From the NCBI RefSeq assembly GCF_014596745.1, contig NZ_JABTCF010000002.1, positions 423,212 through 487,211 on the forward strand: DNA of 64,000 bases. The letters run 5' to 3'. Source of the DNA: Maribacter aquimaris. Its GTDB lineage: Bacteria; Bacteroidota; Bacteroidia; Flavobacteriales; Flavobacteriaceae. Position numbers and translations under genes: made by a program. Below are positions 44,991-56,935 of the stretch, in pieces. The notes below the pieces were generated by a model. That model did no database searches. It saw nothing but the letters and a program-made list of their open reading frames with translations, and was not told where the DNA came from. How positions within the stretch are numbered: position 1 is the stretch's first letter; every line of letters begins with the position of its first letter.

Positions 44991-45629
44991 TTACTCATTA
45001 AGATTATAATATTGCATTACCGCATGATAATCGGTCAAATCTATATTACCATTAATCGATTGTTTTCCAGTAGTATTGGAATTCGATGGAATAGAAACCA
45101 AGCGAAGTTCATCCAGGTCTCCAGCACTAATTGAATATGAAAGACCATCTCTTGAGAATGCTAAGTTTAAGCGGTAGGAGCTGCCGATTGGGCTAAAATA
45201 ACTTGAGATATCTATAAGGGAAAAACCGTTGGTTAAGATTTGTTGATTGGGAATTTGATACCATTCATTATTTATTCGCAAATAGGCTAAAATGACTCCA
45301 TTTTCAACATTATCCGCTGTTAACATAGTTGTTGCCAATTGATAAGTGGTTCCACTGTGACCACTAATATCAAAATTTTGTGAGGTTACATTCGCATTGC
45401 CGTCAGCTCCGTCTTCACCATCCACTCCGTCAGTTCCATCGGCACCATTTGCTCCGTCAGCTCCGTCAGCGCCGTCTTCACCATCTGTGCCATCAACACC
45501 ATCGATGCCGTTAGTACCCACGGGGCCCATGGCACCATCCATGCCATCTTCGCCATCTTTTGCGCAAGATGTAAACATTAGGGCCAATAGTACTAACCCC
45601 ATACCTAATAATTTCACTGTAAATTTCAT
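44991..45629 (-). CDS. Collagen-like lipoprotein
   Basis: 212 aa with a lipoprotein leader (LALMFTSCAKDGEDG, Cys about 22). Residues about 24-75 are Gly-X-Y repeats rich in Asp (DGTDGEDGADGADGANG), typical of collagen triple-helix regions. The C-terminal globular part is beta-rich and unrecognised. The start codon is 27 nt after the local ECF-type promoter element (45657-45685), so it is a predicted member of the sigma regulon at 48726. Confidence 0.8.
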   Translation of the reverse strand: MKFTVKLLGMGLVLLALMFTSCAKDGEDGMDGAMGPVGTNGIDGVDGTDGEDGADGADGANGADGTDGVDGEDGADGNANVTSQNFDISGHSGTTYQLATTMLTADNVENGVILAYLRINNEWYQIPNQQILTNGFSLIDISSYFSPIGSSYRLNLAFSRDGLSYSISAGDLDELRLVSIPSNSNTTGKQSINGNIDLTDYHAVMQYYNLNE

Positions 45630-45656: not shown

Positions 45657-45685
45657 TTAATGGAGGCGATTATTAAAGGTTAACA
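45657..45685 (-). promoter_or_regulatory. ECF-type promoter element, copy F (collagen-like lipoprotein)
   Basis: Minus strand: TGTTAACCTT (45685-45676), 13-bp spacer, CATTAA (45662-45657). Same layout as five other copies in this window. Confidence 0.8.
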
Positions 45686-45738
45686 TTTAAGATGAAATTC
45701 AATATTAAAACCTTGATATCAATTGAATGGCCAATTGA

Positions 45739-46926
45739 CTATTGGTAAAAACCTGTTGGAGTGATTATTAAATGGGGATAAGCTATTTGTTCCAATTCCC
45801 GTTCCCATAGCAGGATTTTATCTGAAATATTTATCAAGGCGATATTCGCTTTGTTGTCATCAGGTACTATGTTGAAGAGTAATAGGTGATTGTCAAAGAA
45901 GTAATATTTTGTCGCAGAGGAATTCCATTCTTCAGCAGTCATGTATGAATAGGAATCCAGTTCCTCACCGCTAATAATATCAAGGGTTTTGGTTACAATG
46001 CTTGATTCCCCTTCCTCTTTAAGGCTAATGAAAACCGTATCATTGGATATGCCAATAGCCAATGGGAACATTCCAATATAGGTGTGTTTCCAAATGAGGT
46101 TCCCTTCACTTTTGTCAATGCTATAAACGGTCTGGTCCCGGGAGTAAAAAATAAACTGGTTATCAATTTCATAACCTCCCAAAATATTGGGACTCTCCGT
46201 ATTAAAGGTCCAATTCACATTCAATTCAGCATCCATGGAAACTATACTATTGCTCCAAGTCATTATCAATACCGAGGAGGAGCCGCCAATTAATTTTGAG
46301 ATTCTATCAGTGAAAGGTGTTCTGTTATCAATATGGCCGGTATCCGCATTTACACTCAATAGTTCCATGGTACTTGAGCCTACACTCAATTCAACGATTA
46401 TCTTGTTTTGGTAGGGTGTGATCTTCTTTATCTCATTACCGAGTTCAATGCTCCAAATAACGTTTCCGGTGTCAAGGTCTAAAGCTTCAAGATGATTGGT
46501 GGAATTGTAGGTTGTTGAATTGACTATCCTATAACTAAGTAGAATCGAATTTTGATGTACTGTTGTCGCATTGATCTGGAAATACCTTTCACTATCTTTT
46601 ACATAATCTTTGGACCACATGAGTTCTCCGTTGAAAGAACCTTTTCGCTGTACTGTTTTTGTTCCAGTATATTCCCCTTGGGTGCATATGAATGTGCCTT
46701 CAAATTCATTACAATGGAATGAAGACAAAGTAGTGAAAGTGTTGATTTGCTGATTGTCCTTTAAATCCAATTCCGTAAAGACATTACTGTTATTTATCCA
46801 AAGACTTCCTACGATGTTGTTGATAGGCTCCACTATTTCATCAAAACTATTATCATCGTCTTTTTTACAGCTTATCGAAACAATAAGCACTATAAGTATT
46901 CCCAAAAGTGATTTATTGGTTTTCAT
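45739..46926 (-). CDS. PQQ-like beta-propeller lipoprotein
   Basis: 395 aa from ATG 46926, where the lipoprotein leader begins (ILIVLIVSISCKKDDDN); the longer frame to 46995 overlaps the upstream gene and lacks a leader. The mature part repeats the PQQ-enzyme blade pattern (ALDLDTGNVIWSIEL, YSIDKSEGNLIWKHTY). It is probably a surface or periplasmic binding/scaffold protein rather than an enzyme. It follows the 121-aa gene by 31 bp and should share its promoter (copy C). Confidence 0.8.
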   Translation of the reverse strand: MKTNKSLLGILIVLIVSISCKKDDDNSFDEIVEPINNIVGSLWINNSNVFTELDLKDNQQINTFTTLSSFHCNEFEGTFICTQGEYTGTKTVQRKGSFNGELMWSKDYVKDSERYFQINATTVHQNSILLSYRIVNSTTYNSTNHLEALDLDTGNVIWSIELGNEIKKITPYQNKIIVELSVGSSTMELLSVNADTGHIDNRTPFTDRISKLIGGSSSVLIMTWSNSIVSMDAELNVNWTFNTESPNILGGYEIDNQFIFYSRDQTVYSIDKSEGNLIWKHTYIGMFPLAIGISNDTVFISLKEEGESSIVTKTLDIISGEELDSYSYMTAEEWNSSATKYYFFDNHLLLFNIVPDDNKANIALINISDKILLWERELEQIAYPHLIITPTGFYQ

Positions 46927-46957
46927 TATTTGAAATATTTTAAGTTTATAATGATTT

Positions 46958-47323
46958 CTAATGTTCAGGATCGTTTTTGGTTTTCTCCATGGCATTGTTC
47001 AGCATTTTACCAACTGCCAATTTTAAAGAGTCTTTCTTTTTTGGGTCAAGACTCTTATCATAGACGTTGTACATTTCCCTAAGTTGTTGCTTGAGTTCTT
47101 CTGGAGCATCCATTTTTTCAATGAGTTCAGTATAGTTTTCGGCTCCGGCCATTGGGTTTTCGGCTCCGGCCCCTGCTAGGTCGAATATCCCGCTGAACAT
47201 TTTCGTTTGTTCGTCTAGGAGGTTTATTTGGGTACTGGAATCCTGCTTTGTTTTCGATTGTCCATGACATGTTGTGAAAAAGCCGAATGCACATATGATC
47301 AATAAGCTTGCTTTTGTTTTCAT
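46958..47323 (-). CDS. Small exported protein of unknown function
   Basis: 121 aa with a signal peptide (about 1-21, FFTTCHGQSK) that may be a lipobox. It contains a short near-repeat (GAGAENPMAGAEN) and a helical, charged C-terminal half. No domain recognised. First gene of a two-gene unit with the propeller lipoprotein, led by promoter element copy C. Confidence 0.7.
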   Translation of the reverse strand: MKTKASLLIICAFGFFTTCHGQSKTKQDSSTQINLLDEQTKMFSGIFDLAGAGAENPMAGAENYTELIEKMDAPEELKQQLREMYNVYDKSLDPKKKDSLKLAVGKMLNNAMEKTKNDPEH

Positions 47324-47351
47324 GATTATAATTTTATGGGATTGTTTTCCT

Positions 47352-47380
47352 TTTATGTTCCATTGGTTAAAAGGTTAACA
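47352..47380 (-). promoter_or_regulatory. ECF-type promoter element, copy C (121-aa protein/propeller operon)
   Basis: Minus strand: TGTTAACCTT (47380-47371), 13-bp spacer, CATAAA (47357-47352). The start codon at 47323 follows after 28 nt. Confidence 0.8.
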
Positions 47381-47405
47381 CGTAGTTGGGAATTATGCAA
47401 AAGAA

Positions 47406-47441
47406 AAACCTGTTCGACTTTTAAAAGTGGAACAGGTTAAA
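47406..47441 (-). terminator. Terminator of the lipocalin/propeller lipoprotein gene
   Basis: AACCTGTTC/GAACAGGTT stem with an inner ACTTTTAAAAGT extension; T-rich after it on the minus strand. Confidence 0.75.
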
Positions 47442-47459
47442 AAAGGATAATGGTTTATA

Positions 47460-48521
47460 CTATACCCCTAAATCTACTTTAATGAGTTTGTATCCCTCTT
47501 CTTCATAGGATTCGGCATTTAACCAAAAATTTGTGCCGTCAAAAGTAATTCCGTCTATTTCATGATAGTCCAAAGAATAGGTTTCTACTGCCCTAAGGCC
47601 TGAAGATGTGGTGCACTTAAAAATTTTATTATCCTTTACCATATATAAATACCCATCCCTATAGTCCATTCCGTTTGGTTGAAAACCCAGATCTATTGTC
47701 TCTAATATTTCACCAGGGGATAAAGCGCCATTGGATTTGTATTTGTACAGTTTTTCTTCGTTATGACTATTTAACCATAACTGTCCGGGCTCAATCGAAG
47801 CGATACCTCTTATATAGGCTCCGACAGGGATAGAGGTATAGTATAAGGAGTTACTCGAATAGAGGAAAGAATCAAACGTGCCACTGCCACTCCCTCCTAA
47901 AAATAGTTGTCTATAGGATGAGTCTGATTTTTCAATTTCTACCGCACTTAACCTTGTTGTACTGGGGATGGTTCCCGCTATTGAGAAATCGTTGGGATTT
48001 ATTTGGAGTATATTACCATCTTCTCCATGGTAGCCTAAAAGAAATTCACCATCAAAGGTAATATCCATATCCCTACCCCATGGGACATTCCCTTGATCTA
48101 AAATAGATAATCGTTCAATCCAATTATCAGCCTCATTATCATTAGCTATCCTTCGTAGTAAAATAGGAGGGGAGTCATAAGGGGGAATTAGGGTTAGTTC
48201 ATTCCCTTCAAGGGTGTAATTATAAATACTGGTTCCCCAAGCACTGATGGTAATCTGAATGTCCGTTACGGTTATGTTGGTTTTATAGTCATCCCTAAAA
48301 CCGCGATTGTCTTCACTTTGAACAATAAAGGTGTCATCGGTATTTATATAAATATATTTAGCGTCATTTATTAAAATTTCGCCACTGACAACCTCCCATT
48401 TACCATAAATACCATCCGTTTGCTCTGGTTCCGCAGAAGCTTCATCTTTGTTACAACTTGTTAGTACCACAACCCATGCAAATAATAATAGGTTTTTTAA
48501 AAATTTGGTCGATGTTTTCAT
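47460..48521 (-). CDS. Lipoprotein with lipocalin-like and propeller-like parts
   Basis: 353 aa with a lipoprotein leader (FAWVVVLTSCNKDEAS, Cys about 23). Residues about 35-125 look like a lipocalin-type beta barrel (GIYGKWEVVSGEI ... LEGNELTLIPP). The C-terminal two-thirds resembles a beta-propeller (LWLNSHNEEKLYKYKSNG, DGITFDGTNFWLNAES). Function unknown; probably at the cell surface. Promoter element copy D lies 23 nt upstream, and the divergent sigma gene carries copy A. Confidence 0.7.
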   Translation of the reverse strand: MKTSTKFLKNLLLFAWVVVLTSCNKDEASAEPEQTDGIYGKWEVVSGEILINDAKYIYINTDDTFIVQSEDNRGFRDDYKTNITVTDIQITISAWGTSIYNYTLEGNELTLIPPYDSPPILLRRIANDNEADNWIERLSILDQGNVPWGRDMDITFDGEFLLGYHGEDGNILQINPNDFSIAGTIPSTTRLSAVEIEKSDSSYRQLFLGGSGSGTFDSFLYSSNSLYYTSIPVGAYIRGIASIEPGQLWLNSHNEEKLYKYKSNGALSPGEILETIDLGFQPNGMDYRDGYLYMVKDNKIFKCTTSSGLRAVETYSLDYHEIDGITFDGTNFWLNAESYEEEGYKLIKVDLGV

Positions 48522-48544
48522 ATTGTAATTTTTAAATTTCTTTT

Positions 48545-48573
48545 TTTATGTAGAAAAAACCATAAGGTTAACA
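48545..48573 (-). promoter_or_regulatory. ECF-type promoter element, copy D (lipocalin/propeller lipoprotein)
   Basis: Minus strand: TGTTAACCTT (48573-48564), 13-bp spacer, CATAAA (48550-48545). Confidence 0.8.
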
Positions 48574-48594
48574 GAACGATCTTTTTTTAGTTTG

Positions 48595-48624
48595 AGTGAT
48601 TGTAGCTCAAATACTACAATCACT
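48595..48624. promoter_or_regulatory. 11-bp perfect inverted repeat between the divergent sigma and lipoprotein genes
   Basis: AGTGATTGTAG (48595-48605) and CTACAATCACT (48614-48624) flank an 8-nt spacer. It lies between the two divergent promoter elements D and A and could be an operator or a transcription-stopping hairpin. Confidence 0.45.
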
Positions 48625-48695
48625 GTCTTTTAAGTAGTTTTTTAGGATTGGTGGTTTCTAAAAAAATGAAAAAGACTAAATTTAGCCTTCAAGAG

Positions 48696-48724
48696 TGTTA
48701 ACCTTAATTTTCCCATTACATTAA
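48696..48724 (+). promoter_or_regulatory. ECF-type promoter element, copy A (at the sigma factor gene)
   Basis: TGTTAACCTT (48696-48705), 13-bp spacer, CATTAA (48719-48724). It ends one base before the annotated GTG start at 48726. This suggests autoregulation, but the start codon conflict is unresolved. Confidence 0.75.
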
Positions 48725-48725
48725 A

Positions 48726-49298
48726 GTGAAAGAAGCAAAAACCGAAATTACGCTCGAGGATCTTAGAAAGGGCTCGGACTTGGCGTTGAAACGGGTTTAC
48801 GAAGAGAACCGTGACAAATTCCTGAATTTTGCACGGAGGTACCACTTGTCGGATGAGGAAAATATAGATGTTTATCAAGATGCCTATGTCATTTTCTACG
48901 ATAATGTGATGAACGGAAAAGTAGAAAGTTTTACCAGTAGTATTGCGACCTATCTTTTCGGTATTGGCAAATACTTGATTTTTGAACGCATGAAAAAGAA
49001 TAAAAAAAAGGTAAGCTCAAAATATGACCTTTCAATAGTAGGGCAGGAAGATGAATTGGTGAATAGTTTTGAAATGGAAGAACAGGAGTTGACTCCTGAG
49101 CAGGTATTATTAAAAAGACACTTCGGGGGATTAGGGGAACAATGTCAGGAGTTATTGACCCTTTTTTACTATCGCGGCTATACGATTCAGGAAATCATGG
49201 AGGCTCGAAATTACAATACCGAGAACGTTGTAAAAGCGGCAAAATCCCGTTGTATGAAAACATTGCGGGAACGTATACAGGCTAATAAAGCCCACTGA
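48726..49298 (+). CDS. ECF-type sigma-70 family RNA polymerase sigma factor
   Basis: 190 aa. Region 2 (about 18-92) contains FLNFARRYHLSDEENIDVYQ and the DNA-melting helix block; region 4 (about 128-185) has the helix-turn-helix YRGYTIQEIMEARNYNTENV. No sigma 1 or 3 domain, as in ECF factors. No ATG is available; GTG 48726 is the family-length start, but it abuts the sigma's own promoter element (copy A), so translation may begin elsewhere. It is followed 2 bp later by the TPR membrane protein, its likely anti-sigma partner. I infer it reads the TGTTAACCTT-N13-CATWAA elements. Confidence 0.85.
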   Translation: MKEAKTEITLEDLRKGSDLALKRVYEENRDKFLNFARRYHLSDEENIDVYQDAYVIFYDNVMNGKVESFTSSIATYLFGIGKYLIFERMKKNKKKVSSKYDLSIVGQEDELVNSFEMEEQELTPEQVLLKRHFGGLGEQCQELLTLFYYRGYTIQEIMEARNYNTENVVKAAKSRCMKTLRERIQANKAH

Positions 49299-49300
49299 TT

Positions 49301-50035
49301 ATGGATAAGGAACAATTATTATATCAATATTTTGCGAACCAGCTCACAGAGGACCGGCAAAAGCTTTTTAATGAATTGTTGGAAAATGATCCGGATTTCA
49401 AAACACAATTTGAATTTGAAAAGAATCTGAAGCGCGTTATCAAAAAGAACCAGAAAGAAAACCTAAAGCAAAAACTGGTCGGTTTTGAGAAGGAAATCAA
49501 AAGTAGTGACCAAAATTCCAATTCTAAAAGTAGTTTCAAGTTTTGGTCGATGGCAGCCTCCTTCGCTCTATTGGTCGCCTTGGGTTGGATGGCCTATAGC
49601 ACTTTTTCCGGGCCAGATTATGATGAATTGTATGCATCGAATTTTGAAACGTATCCCAATACCGTGTATACGATTACTAGAAGTGATGGCGGCCAATCCT
49701 TGACCAGGGATGCTTTTGCAGCCTATGAGGCCAATGACCATGCAAGGGCGGTCACTGCATTCCTGGATTTGAAAAAAGAGGGGGAAACCGGGCAGGTGGA
49801 CTTTTATTTGGCGCAATCTTATCTGAATTTGGGAAAGGACAAAGAGGCCATTGCGGCTTTGAAAAGTGTTATTGTTGGCAGTAAGGAATTTAAGGCGGAA
49901 GCCCATTGGTATCTTGCCCTGGCCTACCTTAAAAGTAAGGATGAGGTAAACGCTGTAGCAACCTTAAAGAGTCTTGTTGAAAATTTTGACTACAAAAAGG
50001 AAAAGGCCCAAACGTTGCTTAAAGCATTGGATTAA
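49301..50035 (+). CDS. Membrane TPR protein, candidate anti-sigma factor
   Basis: 244 aa. Residues 1-78 form a soluble helical domain (YQYFANQLTEDRQKLFNELL, NDPDFKTQFEFEK) like the cytoplasmic part of many transmembrane anti-sigma proteins. One membrane helix follows at about 81-102. Residues 120-244 are TPR-like repeats (DFYLAQSYLNLGKDKEAI, HWYLALAYLKSKDEVNAV) predicted to be periplasmic. A zinc-finger anti-sigma motif is absent. Its position directly after the sigma gene supports the anti-sigma reading. It converges with the CHAT gene, the ends overlapping by 4 bp. Confidence 0.7.
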   Translation: MDKEQLLYQYFANQLTEDRQKLFNELLENDPDFKTQFEFEKNLKRVIKKNQKENLKQKLVGFEKEIKSSDQNSNSKSSFKFWSMAASFALLVALGWMAYSTFSGPDYDELYASNFETYPNTVYTITRSDGGQSLTRDAFAAYEANDHARAVTAFLDLKKEGETGQVDFYLAQSYLNLGKDKEAIAALKSVIVGSKEFKAEAHWYLALAYLKSKDEVNAVATLKSLVENFDYKKEKAQTLLKALD

Positions 50036-52794
50036 GTCCTTCTTCTTCTGAAGTAGAATAACCCACCTACAAGTATTACGATGGCACCTATTGATGTCCA
50101 TACCCAATTGAAGGACTGTGATAGCGGTAAAGTATTTCCTGAAATCACAAAACCTGACCAATAATAGGGATGCGATAAACCGTTATCCCGATTAGTGTTC
50201 AAAAATTCTAGCTGTGCTTTCTGCAGAGCTATATCCTTAGCATCCCCTTTGGAAAGATTTTTGTAAAAACTGCCCATTAAAGTAGCGGAACTGGCATCGT
50301 TGATCTTCCATAAGGTGCTGGCAATACTCGCCGCCCCGCTATAAAAGAATCCTCTTGCCAAACTCATAAAACCTTCCCCTCGCTTTAAATCGCCCAAACC
50401 ACTCTCACAGGCACTCAAAGTAACCAGATCTGCGTCAATTTTTAAGTTATATAGGTCGGCTACATATAGTAAATCTTCTGTTGGGTTGCCATTTTGGGAA
50501 AAGGCCAAATAGGAATATTCAGGGGCGGTATCGTCAAAAATAGCGTGTGTGGCCAAATGTACCATCCCAAAAGAGGATAATTGCGATTTGAAATTTAAAA
50601 GGGAGGCATCTTCATCAATATAGGAACGGCCGTCGAAAGAAGACAAAATCTGTTCCACCTCTTTTTTATTGCTGGGTAAAGGCAGTAATTTTCCGCGGTC
50701 GGCATTGTTCACATTTACAGTGCCATCAAAACTGGGGGCAAAGGCCAAAACGGTATGCTCTTTTGGTTGCCGTTGCCGCAATTCAGAAAGTAGCGTGGCC
50801 GAATTCACATAACTAATGGCATGGTTCTCGGCTAGATAGTTTATACCTTCGGGGTTTGTGTTCAAGGCTGCGAAGGGGATGTAGTTCAAAAGGCCATCGG
50901 CCATGATGATCACTTTTTTCTGGTTGGTAGATTTTAAGAAGGGTGCCAGCAGCTGTTCATATATGGCATAGGTGGTCCTACCCAAAGTCATTGCATCCGA
51001 TTTTGGATCGGAAAGCATTCGATAAATCCTAGTGATACTTGTCTCGAATTCCGAATCAATCGGTATCCGTATTATTTTCTTTGTATTGTTCTCTAGACTG
51101 ATGGCGTAAATGGCATTATTTCCATAGAAAAAGGAAATCAATAGTTCATCCTTTTCCAATAGTTCCTGGGTCTTTGTCAGTGATATGACCTTAGTTCCGT
51201 ATTTTAAATTGTAATAGGCGGGGTAATTGGACTCAATTTTTTGGATAAGGTTGAGGTGGTCGTTCTTCAATTCGAGCAGTTGTCCTTCTAATTCACTATT
51301 TTCGGTTTTTGAAGTATTAAGTTTTTTTTCAATAAATGTGATTTTGGATTTCAATTGGCTTTCACGTTCTAAAACTTCATGTGGAATGTTTGCAAATTCA
51401 GTCGCTTTAGCATTAAGTAAAGCTTCCAATAATAGAACCGATTTACTTTTTTCCAAGTAATAAAAAGCTTTGTCGATTATAGAATCACCTGCGTTTTTCC
51501 CATTTAGGTTGTAAACAGCCTCTAACCCTGATTCGAAGAGCGGGAAGGCGTCTTCTATTAAAAGTAATTTGTCATTATGGTTTTTGAACGAAGGTTTTAG
51601 ACTATCAAGTATATTAATGGCAAGAGCGGTTGTTTCAATTGTTTTCAAATAAGAGTTAATGGAAATTAAAGCTGAATTTTTGTTTTTTAGGGTTTTGAGA
51701 ATTGAAGTCTTATTGGCATTTCGTTGGGATAATTGTTGAATAGCAAAATCATACATTTCCAAGGCTTCTTTGGGCTTGTTTGCAGCCATATATGCTATTC
51801 CTATTTTATTATAGACCGTGGCAAATTCGTCATGTTTTCTTTTCCCCCATTTATGCTCAAGTTCCGAAACGGCGTTTTTATATTCGGCAATAGCTAAATC
51901 AAACTCCGCATTTTTTTGGTGTATCCCTGCTTTTGCCTCATGATATTTATGCCTAAAAGGATGTTTTGGGGGAAGTTTATTTTCTATAAGTTTTAAATAG
52001 TATTTGGCACTATCCAATTTTGAAAGTTGAACATAATTTTCAACAAGATGGAAACCATCTGTAATTAAACTATTTAAACTGCCATTTTCATCAATATCCA
52101 ATTTTAATGATTTCAAAAGAAAACCATTGGATACTTTGAAGTTTTTTTCCCTTTTATGAACTTCTGCCAATAAACTGTAATTTCTGTGTAATGTACGTTC
52201 GTCCTCAGGGATGCTTGACTTTAAAAATCTTATATTCCTGAGATAAAATTGCTTGGCCAATTCATATTTACCCTCATTACTGAACATTTTTGCCAGAAAA
52301 CTATAAGAGGTTGAAAGTAAATATTTATCGTTTATGCTGCTAACGGAATCCGGTAGTTTTTCTGTTGAGTCAACAATTTGTTTAAATGCTTTTCGGGCGT
52401 TTAGGAATTCGTCGAGTTTAAAATAATAATTGCCTTTGTCGTATAGTAACGAATTTTCAAAAAGGCGTTTTTGCGGGGAATCTTCAATCTTTTTTTTGTT
52501 TTTAACCCATAAAGAATCCAACAGTAAAAGATTGTTGTTCATTTTTTCTAAATCATAAAAATAACCAGCTTGCCTATTCCAGTTTATTAAAGTAAAGAAT
52601 TCATCCTCCCATTGGTTTTGTACTTTAGTAAATTGATAAATTTTATGTAAATAGAAATAAACGGAATCTTTGTTGGTATAATAAAACTCCCTTGATTTTT
52701 GAGATAATTTGTCTATTTCCAAATCATAGTCATCTTCAACTTGGGCATTAAGTTGAAAAAATGATATTAAGAATAAGAACACAAAATATTTCAT
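50032..52794 (-). CDS. Exported TPR-CHAT protease with C-terminal membrane anchor
   Basis: 920 aa. A signal peptide (MKYFVFLFLISFFQLNAQ) is followed by many TPR-type helical repeats (about 40-430) and a coiled coil (about 470-520). The CHAT caspase-like domain spans about residues 600-880. The dyad is intact: His750 in HLATHAIFDD and Cys796 in TLSACESGLGDL. A membrane helix and Arg-rich stop (FNWVWTSIGAIVILVGG...RRRR) close it, so the protease domain should face the periplasm. Most known CHAT proteases are cytosolic. Second gene after the lipoprotein at 52874, sharing promoter copy E. Substrate unknown; the neighbouring TPR membrane protein is a candidate. Confidence 0.88.
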   Translation of the reverse strand: MKYFVFLFLISFFQLNAQVEDDYDLEIDKLSQKSREFYYTNKDSVYFYLHKIYQFTKVQNQWEDEFFTLINWNRQAGYFYDLEKMNNNLLLLDSLWVKNKKKIEDSPQKRLFENSLLYDKGNYYFKLDEFLNARKAFKQIVDSTEKLPDSVSSINDKYLLSTSYSFLAKMFSNEGKYELAKQFYLRNIRFLKSSIPEDERTLHRNYSLLAEVHKREKNFKVSNGFLLKSLKLDIDENGSLNSLITDGFHLVENYVQLSKLDSAKYYLKLIENKLPPKHPFRHKYHEAKAGIHQKNAEFDLAIAEYKNAVSELEHKWGKRKHDEFATVYNKIGIAYMAANKPKEALEMYDFAIQQLSQRNANKTSILKTLKNKNSALISINSYLKTIETTALAINILDSLKPSFKNHNDKLLLIEDAFPLFESGLEAVYNLNGKNAGDSIIDKAFYYLEKSKSVLLLEALLNAKATEFANIPHEVLERESQLKSKITFIEKKLNTSKTENSELEGQLLELKNDHLNLIQKIESNYPAYYNLKYGTKVISLTKTQELLEKDELLISFFYGNNAIYAISLENNTKKIIRIPIDSEFETSITRIYRMLSDPKSDAMTLGRTTYAIYEQLLAPFLKSTNQKKVIIMADGLLNYIPFAALNTNPEGINYLAENHAISYVNSATLLSELRQRQPKEHTVLAFAPSFDGTVNVNNADRGKLLPLPSNKKEVEQILSSFDGRSYIDEDASLLNFKSQLSSFGMVHLATHAIFDDTAPEYSYLAFSQNGNPTEDLLYVADLYNLKIDADLVTLSACESGLGDLKRGEGFMSLARGFFYSGAASIASTLWKINDASSATLMGSFYKNLSKGDAKDIALQKAQLEFLNTNRDNGLSHPYYWSGFVISGNTLPLSQSFNWVWTSIGAIVILVGGLFYFRRRRT

Positions 52795-52873
52795 AGTAAA
52801 AGTTGGCCCCCATTAGGATGGAAACCAACATTGCAATTAGTTTTAAAGCCTGCCTTATATCCTAAAAATAGGA

Positions 52874-53494
52874 TTAAAACACATACCCTTTAAAACTATA
52901 ATCTAATAAATTACCTTGGTCATCTAATTTACTGATATTTATAAGTACTTCACCCTTAATCTTCTGAAAGACTATAAATTGAGTGTAAAGTAATTGGTCA
53001 TTATACTCAGGGAAGGGAGTGAATTTTGGAGCAGTTGAACTTAATACCTTCCCGTTTGTATCTAAGAGGCTTATGTTTTTAATGTTTTCTCCTTCTAAAA
53101 TCAACATGTATTCAAGAGAATTACGTAGACCCAAACAATTACAAGGTGGCCGTGGAATATCTGGCCCTATTTTTAAACCGACTTCACTCAAATCTATGAT
53201 GCCTGCGATTTGTTTTTTGAATTTATCTTGTTGTATCTCTGCTTCGATTATATCTTTTTGTGCCTGATTATAACCTGGGTCTTTGGGAGAGATTTTTTTT
53301 AGTTTGGAAATATCTTCATTTAAGTTTTCGATTTCTGAATTCAAATAGAATTTGAACATATCACCCTCATAACTGAAATTCGTTTCCGTTAATACCACGT
53401 CTTCTGAATCGCCGGCGTTACCGGTATAATCCTTTACACATGAGGTCGTAAGAAGCGATAAGAAGATGACGATAATTAATAGTTTTGTTTTCAT
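52874..53494 (-). CDS. Lipoprotein preceding the CHAT protease
   Basis: 206 aa with a lipoprotein leader (FLSLLTTSCVKDYTG, Cys about 19). A predicted coiled coil (about 50-100, ENLNEDISKLKKISP, EIQQDKFKKQI) is followed by a Pro/Cys-rich turn (RPPCNCLGL) and a beta-rich C-terminus. No domain recognised. Its operon position with the CHAT gene (79-bp gap) and promoter copy E 33 nt upstream make it a likely partner or substrate of the protease. Confidence 0.72.
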   Translation of the reverse strand: MKTKLLIIVIFLSLLTTSCVKDYTGNAGDSEDVVLTETNFSYEGDMFKFYLNSEIENLNEDISKLKKISPKDPGYNQAQKDIIEAEIQQDKFKKQIAGIIDLSEVGLKIGPDIPRPPCNCLGLRNSLEYMLILEGENIKNISLLDTNGKVLSSTAPKFTPFPEYNDQLLYTQFIVFQKIKGEVLINISKLDDQGNLLDYSFKGYVF

Positions 53495-53527
53495 AGTTTG
53501 TTGATAAAAGGTTTATTTTGTTTCCAT

Positions 53528-53556
53528 TTAATGGACATAAAAAGTCAAGGTTAACA
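53528..53556 (-). promoter_or_regulatory. ECF-type promoter element, copy E (lipoprotein-CHAT operon)
   Basis: Minus strand: TGTTAACCTT (53556-53547), 13-bp spacer, CATTAA (53533-53528). Confidence 0.8.
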
Positions 53557-53716
53557 TAGTTACTCAACTATTTAGCCTGTTTAATTCGTGGGGGAACAAA
53601 ATTCTGGGGGAATTTTAAAGGAAAAAAGATACGAAATGATCGGATATAAAATTGTAAAAACCCGTCCTATTTGTTAAAAGGGACAAAAAACAGGCATTTA
53701 AATAAATGTAGGTGAA

Positions 53717-54550
53717 CTATTTAAGGAATATTGGATTCTTGACAAAGGCCTCTTTTACAAATTTGAACTTATCCAAATGAAACTTTTTTGGTGACTCCCC
53801 GCAATATTTTTTAAAATCCTTACTGAAATGGGCTAGGTCATAGTAGTTGAACAGTGCTACTAGGGTTTTATAGTTGTTTTGGTCCTCAGCATCGATTTGG
53901 GAGAATAAATTGTTGAAGCGAACCATGCGATTGTAAACCGAAGGTGCAATACCTACCACTTCTTTAAACTTCTTTTGAAAATAGCGTTCACTGACATTCA
54001 ATTTTTTGGTAACCTTGGTAATCGGTTCACACCCCAAAGAGCGATCCATCATATCGATGGCAATGTCGATAAAATTGGGAACGTATTTTTTATCTTCCAA
54101 TAGGTCTAAAAGTAATTGTTCCACCAGTTCCACTTTCTTTCCGGCCCGTAATTCCTTTTCATAGGAGGTTTCAAAATGGGTTAGATCAGAACCAAGAACA
54201 GTTTTTGAATCGGCAGGGGTATTGGTAAGTAATGACATGTTCTGCCCGAAAAAATGGTAAAGACCTGTGGGTTTAAAAGCGACTCCGGTCAATGCATTGG
54301 TTTCATGATCGGAGAAAAGCGTATAGGTTTTAGTCTGTTGGCCAATGGTATAGTATTTCGGTACAGATTGTTCTTTAGTATCCATCATGCCCCTAAACCT
54401 TCCCTGGTGTTGAAAGACCATAAAACCTTTGCCACTTGGTAAAACGGTCTCACGTATATCATTTTCATAGTCTTTACGCTCCCAGATTATGTCATAATAG
54501 AACGATACATAAGGTTGTAGTTTCTTTGTGACGGGATAGGTGGTGAACAT
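53717..54550 (-). CDS. AraC family transcriptional regulator
   Basis: 277 aa. An N-terminal effector-like domain (KLQPYVSFYYDIIWER, GVAFKPTGLYHFFGQ) precedes an AraC helix-turn-helix pair at the C-terminus (TKKLNVSERYFQKKFKEVVG, ALFNYYDLAHFSKDFKKYCG). Ligand and targets unknown. No ECF-type promoter element precedes it; it lies inside the regulon cluster but need not belong to it. Confidence 0.88.
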   Translation of the reverse strand: MFTTYPVTKKLQPYVSFYYDIIWERKDYENDIRETVLPSGKGFMVFQHQGRFRGMMDTKEQSVPKYYTIGQQTKTYTLFSDHETNALTGVAFKPTGLYHFFGQNMSLLTNTPADSKTVLGSDLTHFETSYEKELRAGKKVELVEQLLLDLLEDKKYVPNFIDIAIDMMDRSLGCEPITKVTKKLNVSERYFQKKFKEVVGIAPSVYNRMVRFNNLFSQIDAEDQNNYKTLVALFNYYDLAHFSKDFKKYCGESPKKFHLDKFKFVKEAFVKNPIFLK

Positions 54551-54637
54551 GTGAGGTTAATTGATTAGGTTTTGATTTTGGAATGACCATGGTTTATAAA
54601 TTTAGATTAAAAATGGATATGATTGAAAATTGATATA

Positions 54638-56131
54638 TTATATTTTTACAAATTCCACACGCCTGTTATTGGTTTTGCCTTCGGTTGTAGTGTTGTTATC
54701 AACAGGTTCCGATTCCCCTTTTCCATCGGTTTGTAATCTATTACTTCCAATATTGAATTGGGCAATTAGGGTATTTTTGACAGCTGAGGCCCGTTTTTCC
54801 GATAAGGTCATATTTTGCCCATCGTTGCCATCGGCATCGGTATGGCCGATAATCTTCAGGTTTAAGGTTGGTTCCTGTTGCATGGTTTCTGCTACTTGTT
54901 TCAGGACACCGAAAGATTCAGGCTTTATTTGATCCGAGCCAGAGTTGAACAGAATGCCTGTAGTGGAAAACCTACCATTTTCCAATAATTGTCCACGCAA
55001 GTCCAGACCACCTTGGGCAATTTTTATATTGTTGATGAAAACATTGTCAATGCCATCGCGAATATCCCTTGGGTGCAATTTGAATGACACGATGTTGTCA
55101 GGAACCAATCTGGGTACGTCTACCACCTTGTTTTCATTGATCCACATTCTAAACCTTTTGCCGTTAACGGCGATGGAAACATGGTTTTTTTGTAAAAGTA
55201 TGTCCCTTATGTCTTTTTCTACCGTATTTCTGATGACACGGTTGCCTGCAATTCTATTCTCGATTATAAAGCCTACACCAATAAATAAACATAGGGGTAT
55301 TTCTACCATAGCCATATTTTTTGAGGTGTTGAACATATTGTTGTCTTCAAGCCATATTTCCAATTTTGCCTGTGAACTTGTTTTTTTGTCAACTACGGTA
55401 AGCATGTCAAACTCTACGGTATAGTCTTCGGGCAAATTGGAAGGCAAATCGGGGATGTAAATGGATTTCCCGGCCAGTTTAAACCATTTTTCTTCATTGA
55501 TCATAGTCAGCTCACCGGTGCCATTGGTATTCCATTTGGATGGAAAATCGCCCATATTGTCCAAAGAAAAATCATCTGTCATTAGTATTTTGTCACCAGG
55601 GACAAAATCGAACTTACTATAGACCTCTAATTCTTGGGTCGTATTGGTTTCTTGGCCTGAAGAGCCATGGTCATTGTCCGGACCGTTGTTGGCAATGTCA
55701 TCGTCAGATGTTGTTTTATCATTTTTTTTCTTTTTTTCCGATAACAGTTTTTTGGCTGTTTTCAAGCTGTATTTCAAGGCTTTTTTTGCCCGGTTCATTT
55801 GTAATGTCGCTTTGCCTTGTTTAAGAATACCGGCACCATTAATATCCGCTATCGCATCTGGGGCACTCGATAGAACACGTTCTGAGTCTTCAACCGTATC
55901 GATTAAAGTTTCATAATCATCTTCATCCAATGGTTTCCCTTCTTGGGCATAGTTATCGTATAGGTACACTTTATCGTATAGGTCAAATGATTCCCTGACG
56001 AATGTATCCACACTATGGATTCCTACACGGCCAGAAGGCCGTTTTAATCTTTTTTCTTGTGACTGTATGGAATTGAGGAAGAGAAACCCAAACAGTATTA
56101 AAGCTAATATTGATTTATGTGAATGCTTCAT
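54638..56131 (-). CDS. OmpA family outer-membrane-associated protein
   Basis: 497 aa with a signal peptide (about 1-24). Residues about 25-150 are helical and Lys-rich; a linker (DDDIANNGPDNDHGSS) follows. The middle (about 175-370) is a beta-sandwich-like module (DDFSLDNMGDFPSKWN, EDYTVEFDMLTV). The C-terminal OmpA peptidoglycan-binding domain (about 385-497) has NLKIIGHTDADG and KGESEPVDNNTTTEGKTNNRRVEF. It likely tethers the envelope to peptidoglycan. Second gene after 56164-56880, so predicted to be under promoter copy B. Confidence 0.88.
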   Translation of the reverse strand: MKHSHKSILALILFGFLFLNSIQSQEKRLKRPSGRVGIHSVDTFVRESFDLYDKVYLYDNYAQEGKPLDEDDYETLIDTVEDSERVLSSAPDAIADINGAGILKQGKATLQMNRAKKALKYSLKTAKKLLSEKKKKNDKTTSDDDIANNGPDNDHGSSGQETNTTQELEVYSKFDFVPGDKILMTDDFSLDNMGDFPSKWNTNGTGELTMINEEKWFKLAGKSIYIPDLPSNLPEDYTVEFDMLTVVDKKTSSQAKLEIWLEDNNMFNTSKNMAMVEIPLCLFIGVGFIIENRIAGNRVIRNTVEKDIRDILLQKNHVSIAVNGKRFRMWINENKVVDVPRLVPDNIVSFKLHPRDIRDGIDNVFINNIKIAQGGLDLRGQLLENGRFSTTGILFNSGSDQIKPESFGVLKQVAETMQQEPTLNLKIIGHTDADGNDGQNMTLSEKRASAVKNTLIAQFNIGSNRLQTDGKGESEPVDNNTTTEGKTNNRRVEFVKI

Positions 56132-56163
56132 TATTTGAAATTTTTAAATTAAAAGGGTATAGC

Positions 56164-56880
56164 TTAAAGGCGTTCGTATTCCGATGTAATAATTTGAAAA
56201 TTTTCCCGCTCAAATTTTGTACATGTCATGGTTGTGATTTTTTCTTTTCTACCTCTTTTTTTATTGGTTACGATTTTTAAGGGTAAACCCGAATAGATGG
56301 CTTTAAGGGAATCGTCATCAAGGGTTAGGCTTCTTGCCAAGATGTATCCGAAAAGTTGTGGGGTCGTTGAATTTTCGCCAAAAGACCCATCGATTACCCC
56401 TTCGGCCACCCAAACTTCGCTTGTTAGGTTGTCACTGGTCATTCTGAACAATGTGCAGTCGTGGCCTAGTAAATTCCCATAGCCCGCAGCTTCATAGACC
56501 TCTGGATTTTCGGCATCGTTGTATTCTTTTAACAAGCCTTTGAAGTTAAAAGGCATGGTCATTACTATTTTTTTATCATCCTTACCCATATAGCTATACA
56601 TCTTGTTACTTGCATTATCAAAAACGACGACCATATCACCTTCGGTCCTGGAGCAGAAATAGCCTCCATTGGTAGGTAAATAATAATCTATAACCGTTTT
56701 ATTACCCCTAGGGTTTTCAATCTCTAATTGATATATATAGTCAAAAGTGTATACATCACTTTGGGCATTTAAATTTGTGCCTAATAGTAGGGCTAACAGT
56801 ACAAGCGACAGTGTTGAAATTGTAGTATGTTTGAGGTTGGTTCTCTCTGTGATCGTTAAAGTGCTATTTAAAAAGTCCAT
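56164..56880 (-). CDS. Exported DUF4412-like protein
   Basis: 238 aa with a signal peptide (to about residue 39, LLGTNLNAQS). The mature part resembles DUF4412/GLPGLI-type proteins: VIDYYLPTNGGYFCSR, DNASNKMYSYMGKDDKKIV, GYGNLLGHDCTLFRM, EVWVAEGV. Function unknown. First gene of a two-gene unit with the OmpA protein (32-bp gap), under promoter copy B. Confidence 0.7.
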   Translation of the reverse strand: MDFLNSTLTITERTNLKHTTISTLSLVLLALLLGTNLNAQSDVYTFDYIYQLEIENPRGNKTVIDYYLPTNGGYFCSRTEGDMVVVFDNASNKMYSYMGKDDKKIVMTMPFNFKGLLKEYNDAENPEVYEAAGYGNLLGHDCTLFRMTSDNLTSEVWVAEGVIDGSFGENSTTPQLFGYILARSLTLDDDSLKAIYSGLPLKIVTNKKRGRKEKITTMTCTKFERENFQIITSEYERL

Positions 56881-56906
56881 ATGTTTGATTTTCTTTGTTT
56901 CCCTTT

Positions 56907-56935
56907 TTTATGTTCTATGGATAAAAAGGTTAACA
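56907..56935 (-). promoter_or_regulatory. ECF-type promoter element, copy B (DUF4412-like/OmpA operon)
   Basis: Minus strand: TGTTAACCTT (56935-56926), 13-bp spacer, CATAAA (56912-56907). The start codon at 56880 follows after 26 nt. Confidence 0.8.

Follow-up and report, generated by a model that had tools for sequence, protein, structure and literature searches.

We analyzed a 64,000-nucleotide stretch of the Maribacter aquimaris genome (contig NZ_JABTCF010000002.1, positions 423,212 to 487,211; here called the window), which carries a gene for an extracytoplasmic function (ECF)-type sigma factor and, inside 11.3 kb around this single sigma gene, six sites matching the two-box pattern TGTTAACCTT-N13-CATWAA. 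An earlier note on this DNA had proposed that the six copies are promoters of one regulon read by the local sigma factor. All six were re-found exactly, on the strands reported, compared with 0 expected from 100 dinucleotide shuffles. The 10-mer TGTTAACCTT alone occurs in the window at these six places only, in agreement with the statement that there are no further copies. Chance or a mobile repeat was rejected as the source of the copies, because the boxes stay constant while the spacers differ.

Five of the pattern matches lie on the minus strand, as do the genes that they precede. These encode a collagen-like lipoprotein (site 45657..45685; gene 44991..45629), a 121-aa exported protein (47352..47380; 46958..47323), a 353-aa lipoprotein divergent from the sigma gene (48545..48573; 47460..48521), a 206-aa lipoprotein that is the first gene ahead of a CHAT protease gene (53528..53556; 52874..53494), and a DUF4412 protein followed by an OmpA-family protein (56907..56935; 56164..56880). 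The gaps between box end and start codon, reported as 23 to 33 nt, were recounted as 27, 28, 23, 33, and 26 nt, respectively. The sixth site (48696..48724) is on the plus strand and ends 1 nt ahead of the sigma GTG codon at 48726. Its position at the sigma gene was as described. Because it directly adjoins the start codon, however, it should be kept apart from the other five rather than treated as a further promoter of their kind.

The sigma gene (48726..49298, plus strand) encodes a 190-aa protein that matches the ECF superfamily model TIGR02937 of NCBIfam (47.6 bits against a cut-off of 42.9, residues 20-183). No Pfam match was obtained at 1e-3, and SigW (5wuq) was the sole solved structure to match the sigma profile (E=0.00036). 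The next gene (49301..50035, plus strand) encodes a 244-aa protein that is predicted to be a membrane anti-sigma factor. The model has three N-terminal helices, a hydrophobic helix (79-102), and a C-terminal tetratricopeptide repeat (TPR) domain. In a simple hydropathy scan, 54 of 79 relatives of this protein were flagged and the window copy was not, and comparison of its profile with the PDB returned repeat proteins or designs only.

On the minus strand (50032..52794) lies the gene for a 920-aa TPR-CHAT protease with a C-terminal hydrophobic segment (895-913), in which the CHAT domain (PF12770) scored 217.9 bits against a Pfam cut-off of 24. Relatives were counted in a set of 80 named sigma loci plus the window (81 sequences), whose genes are related and unweighted. 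The catalytic His-Cys dyad (His750, Cys796) is kept in 78 of 79 CHAT proteins, and the CHAT gene is convergent in 75 of 80 loci. In fold comparison, the CHAT model proved similar to Craspase Csx29 and to separase, with a weaker likeness to DdvA, an anti-sigma factor. A sequence search of the PDB with the CHAT profile gave 48 rows, all of them TPR proteins, and the likeness to Csx29 is by fold only. The same genome has a second sigma/TPR/CHAT module (L046:5590-9759, contig C3), with identities of 41% for sigma, 33% for TPR, and 34% for CHAT; no site of this box type was found there in the scan.

Distribution of the motif and its predicted reader

To scan for further copies, we used the entire M. 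aquimaris genome (4,863,295 bases, 27 contigs, 99.99% complete). The exact pattern gave six matches, which are the six in the window, and the reversed-pattern control gave 0; the scatter of copies that would have spoken against a regulon was not seen. A looser pattern, TGTTAAC-N16/17-YATWAA, gave 10 matches at a control level of 7, and the 4 extra matches, which do not have C at position 8, are within that control level in number.

Relatives that keep the sigma gene also keep the motif. Of the 80 sigma loci, 40 were used to reach 40 genomes; 38 of these genomes had a match, with 162 matches in total compared with 14 in the control. When 149 genomes of the family were scanned for TGTTAACC-N15-CATWAA, the ten with the best sigma matches contained 46 copies (reversed control, 4). 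The remaining 139 contained 19, compared with 31 in their control, which is background. The limit for these ten genomes (sigma E of 4.4e-45 or lower) was drawn after the loci had been seen, and the next ten genomes gave 4 matches.

The form of the element is also conserved. Across the 81 sequences, TGTTAACC occurs 297 times in intergenic DNA other than at sigma genes. The spacer to CATWAA is 15 in 185 of these cases and 16 in 43, with 8 or fewer at any other offset. Intragenic copies of TGTTAACC have the spacing of 15 in 3 of 32 cases. Pairing the six sites of the window with those of Maribacter polysiphoniae shows 1 difference in 96 box positions and 14 in 78 spacer positions.

More distant loci show an association between box variants and sigma factors. 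The sigma gene and its divergent neighbor both have a site in 5 of 21 such loci, and in all five the first heptamer is identical at the two sites: TGTTTAC in L165 and L141, GGTTACC in L160, and TGTTAAC in L025 and L138. There is a mismatch at L139, with TGTTAAC at the neighbor and TGCTTAC at the sigma gene. Considering distribution, conserved form, and covariation together, we think it very probable that the six sites form a regulon of the adjacent ECF-type sigma factor, as first proposed.

The box could instead serve as the operator of some DNA-binding regulator distinct from the sigma factor, a notion encouraged by the palindromic GTTAAC and by an AraC-type regulator gene nearby (53717-54550), between two target operons. 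This appears very improbable, since the second box at fixed spacing, the gene-directed orientation, and the median distance of 27 nt are promoter-like and the matches track the sigma gene and its variants. The AraC-type gene itself is not directly preceded by any of the six sites.

Intergenic CAT sites upstream of open reading frames (ORFs) numbered 192 and came from 67 of the 81 sequences. In 161 of them the distance from the box to the start codon is 21-37 nt, with a median of 27. G is found at box+4 in 103 of these 192 target sites, followed by A-rich sequence. This arrangement marks a likely transcript start and suggests that target transcripts begin about 4 nt past the box. A crude rule classed 178 target proteins (distance, 10-60 nt) as 96 lipoprotein-like, 78 otherwise signal- or membrane-like, and 4 neither; the same rule applied to 1192 control ORFs gave 246, 629, and 317.

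The collagen-like lipoprotein (Pfam Collagen, 39.2 bits) represents the largest target family, with 49 genes in 38 loci; in some relatives (L038 and L044) such genes stand in tandem, several copies having their own box. The 121-aa protein has 14 related targets in 14 loci, and its gene is followed by one for a PQQ-type propeller (45739-46995 as the longest ORF). The 353-aa lipoprotein has no Pfam match and has 18 related targets in 18 loci. Pfam matches were obtained for the DUF4412 protein (35.1 bits) and for the OmpA-family protein (74.1 bits), whose gene (54638..56131) is on the minus strand. General positive feedback on CHAT was ruled out, as a site lies at most 1.3 kb upstream of the CHAT gene in just 30 of 73 testable loci (of 80). 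Inspection by eye showed an inverted repeat of 11 bp, with arms at 48595-48605 and 48614-48624, in the interval that separates the sigma-gene site from the site of the divergent lipoprotein gene; M. polysiphoniae differs at one arm position.

The sixth site at the sigma start codon

In order to compare the sixth site with its counterparts, the upstream regions of the sigma genes were scanned, allowing a spacer of 16 or 17 and resolving ties toward abutting sites. An abutting site was present in 79 of 81 sigma genes, ending at -1 (11 genes), 0 (45 genes), or +1 (23 genes) nt from the start codon. The two exceptions are Aquimarina loci (L127 and L131); the genome of L127 nonetheless holds 2 boxes. 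A comparable scan of 1213 other ATG-started ORFs from 80 loci found 3 at abutting distance, most others lying at 22-37 nt. Among 44 more distant sigma homologues, many of them loosely related, 13 had an abutting site, 1 had a site at -2, 7 had a box 5-22 nt away, and 23 had none by scan (L032, L146, L148, L163, and the paralogue in the same genome were dropped beforehand). The abutting geometry is established in these sequences.

A transcript that started about 4 nt past the sixth box would be without the sigma start codon; in the window, a start at box+4 would fall on 48728, the last base of the GTG. Two ways of restoring ordinary autoregulation were considered. A conventional self-promoter further upstream was ruled out, as none of the 79 sigma genes has a second plus-strand site within 300 nt upstream. 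Rescue by an alternative sigma start is seldom possible: an in-frame TAA directly precedes the start in 42 of 79 genes, in-frame starts occur upstream in 8 and downstream within 14 codons (GTG or TTG) in 16, and no downstream in-frame ATG was found within 14 codons in any of the 79.

ECF sigma genes are often self-activated, and active-site geometry should bar transcription from starting very close to the -10 element. Both points bear on the main rival explanation, leaderless positive autoregulation, in which polymerase would begin transcription right on the sigma start codon, 0-1 nt beyond the box. Self-activation is also described in PMC10028731, the promoter form is retained (CATTAA or CATAAA in 55 of 79 sigma-gene sites), and in some distant homologues the box stands 9-12 nt ahead of the start, so that a short leader could be ancestral. 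Against leaderless starts, apart from the active-site argument, stand the G at box+4 of the targets, the overlap of ATG with the box in 11 genes, the GTG start in 27, and the proportion of leaderless mRNAs in Flavobacterium psychrophilum, just 5.5% (PMC9723704). We regard this explanation as possible but unlikely.

Alternatively, the sixth site might be bound without firing, as a decoy or roadblock that limits the supply of sigma and yields no mRNA for the anti-sigma protein alone. TATTAA replaces CATTAA at 17 of 79 sigma-gene sites, a change that may weaken firing, but some of the intergenic TGTTAAC sites elsewhere also have TATTAA, and the full box is retained at most sigma-gene sites. We consider this reading improbable.

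In 57 of 79 sigma genes, TAnnTT[ACT]G occurs in the 30 nt upstream of the abutting site, mostly 8-11 nt ahead, compared with 6 of 191 targets; the full TAnnTTTG was found in 11 of 79. The box resembles the flavobacterial housekeeping element TAnnTTTG, which sits at -12 to -5 (PMC9723704). No clear -33 TTG accompanies it in the upstream regions of the sigma genes. The window is among the 22 of 79 sigma genes without a strict match and has an imperfect one, TAAATTTAG (48677..48685, plus strand), at the position of this housekeeping-like box.

Translation of sigma may be damped too, by the GTG starts and by T at -3. T occupies -3 in 48 of 52 ATG-started sigma genes, compared with 20% of 885 other ATG-started ORFs, a start context that is partly dictated by the box itself. 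In Flavobacterium johnsoniae, A at -3 favors initiation (PMC6847099).

A proposed negative-feedback circuit

What was observed directly is the sites and their confinement to one part of the genome, a conserved geometry and gene order, the catalytic dyad, and the matches in fold. We propose that the sixth site is a negative-feedback element. An envelope signal would cause the TPR-CHAT protease, which would face the periplasm, to cleave or release the predicted membrane TPR anti-sigma protein. The freed sigma factor would then act at the target boxes, which stand about 27 nt from the start codons, and switch on these genes. The likely source of the basal sigma transcript is the housekeeping sigma factor, acting at the nearby upstream box of the TAnnTT[ACT]G type. 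RNA polymerase carrying the ECF sigma factor at the sixth site would cover the leader of this basal transcript and so obstruct it. The sigma-dependent transcript from the site would have its 5' end on the start codon or beyond it, and would then encode the anti-sigma protein and not sigma. We put the probability of this mechanism in full at roughly 0.55.

We hold more tentatively, at somewhat below even odds, a bolder form of the idea: a one-site homeostat, in which a self-promoter lying across the start codon yields inhibitor-only mRNA and blocks basal sigma mRNA, kept across the family and tied to a caspase-like envelope protease similar to the Craspase protease of CRISPR. If the negative-feedback reading is true, a single conserved arrangement of nucleotides would allow a sigma factor both to switch on its regulon and to restrain itself, with no additional protein; ECF circuits usually do the opposite and amplify themselves. 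The exactness of the six sites in one genome also makes the regulon a clean system in which to study how ECF promoters are recognized in the phylum.

Comparison with known systems

In the literature searched, which left most subscription papers outside its scope, we found no paper on the motif, the abutting geometry, or a periplasmic TPR-CHAT/sigma module. The individual parts are of known kinds; the conserved self-site abutting the start codon and the sigma/TPR/CHAT module made of separate genes did not turn up there and appear to be new.

One of the closest known counterparts of the module is the CRISPR type III-E CASP/Craspase system, with Csx29 (TPR-CHAT), Csx30, and CASP-sigma (PMC10028731). 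The module described here differs in having a protease with a C-terminal hydrophobic segment and a predicted inhibitor with a TPR domain. None of the six module and target proteins scanned matched a PADLOC model at 1e-3, and no Cas gene was seen among them. If our reading is true, a chromosomal, envelope-facing sigma/inhibitor/TPR-CHAT module stands beside the Craspase pathway, and the origin of caspase-controlled sigma factors becomes testable in culturable bacteria. A second counterpart is DdvS/DdvA of Myxococcus xanthus (PMC4374960; structures 8rot and 8rw5); what is one protein there is two genes here. The fold match of the CHAT model to DdvA is no stronger than that of TPR-only rows.

Among promoters, the SM6 promoters of F. 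psychrophilum are likewise flavobacterial, ECF-type, and marked by a conserved -10 triplet, which is CGT in that species and CAT here. The SM6 genes listed in that study (PMC9723704) are largely components of the type IX secretion system and include one sigma/anti-sigma pair.

The envelope-stress circuits sigma-W/RsiW and sigma-E/RseA resemble the proposed circuit in their two-box geometry and in a membrane anti-sigma factor that is released by proteolysis. Boxes of the sigma-W/sigma-E type read TGAAAC-N16-CGTA. For sigma-W and sigma-E, the promoters that activate the sigma gene lie upstream of its start codon, whereas the self-site described here abuts that codon.
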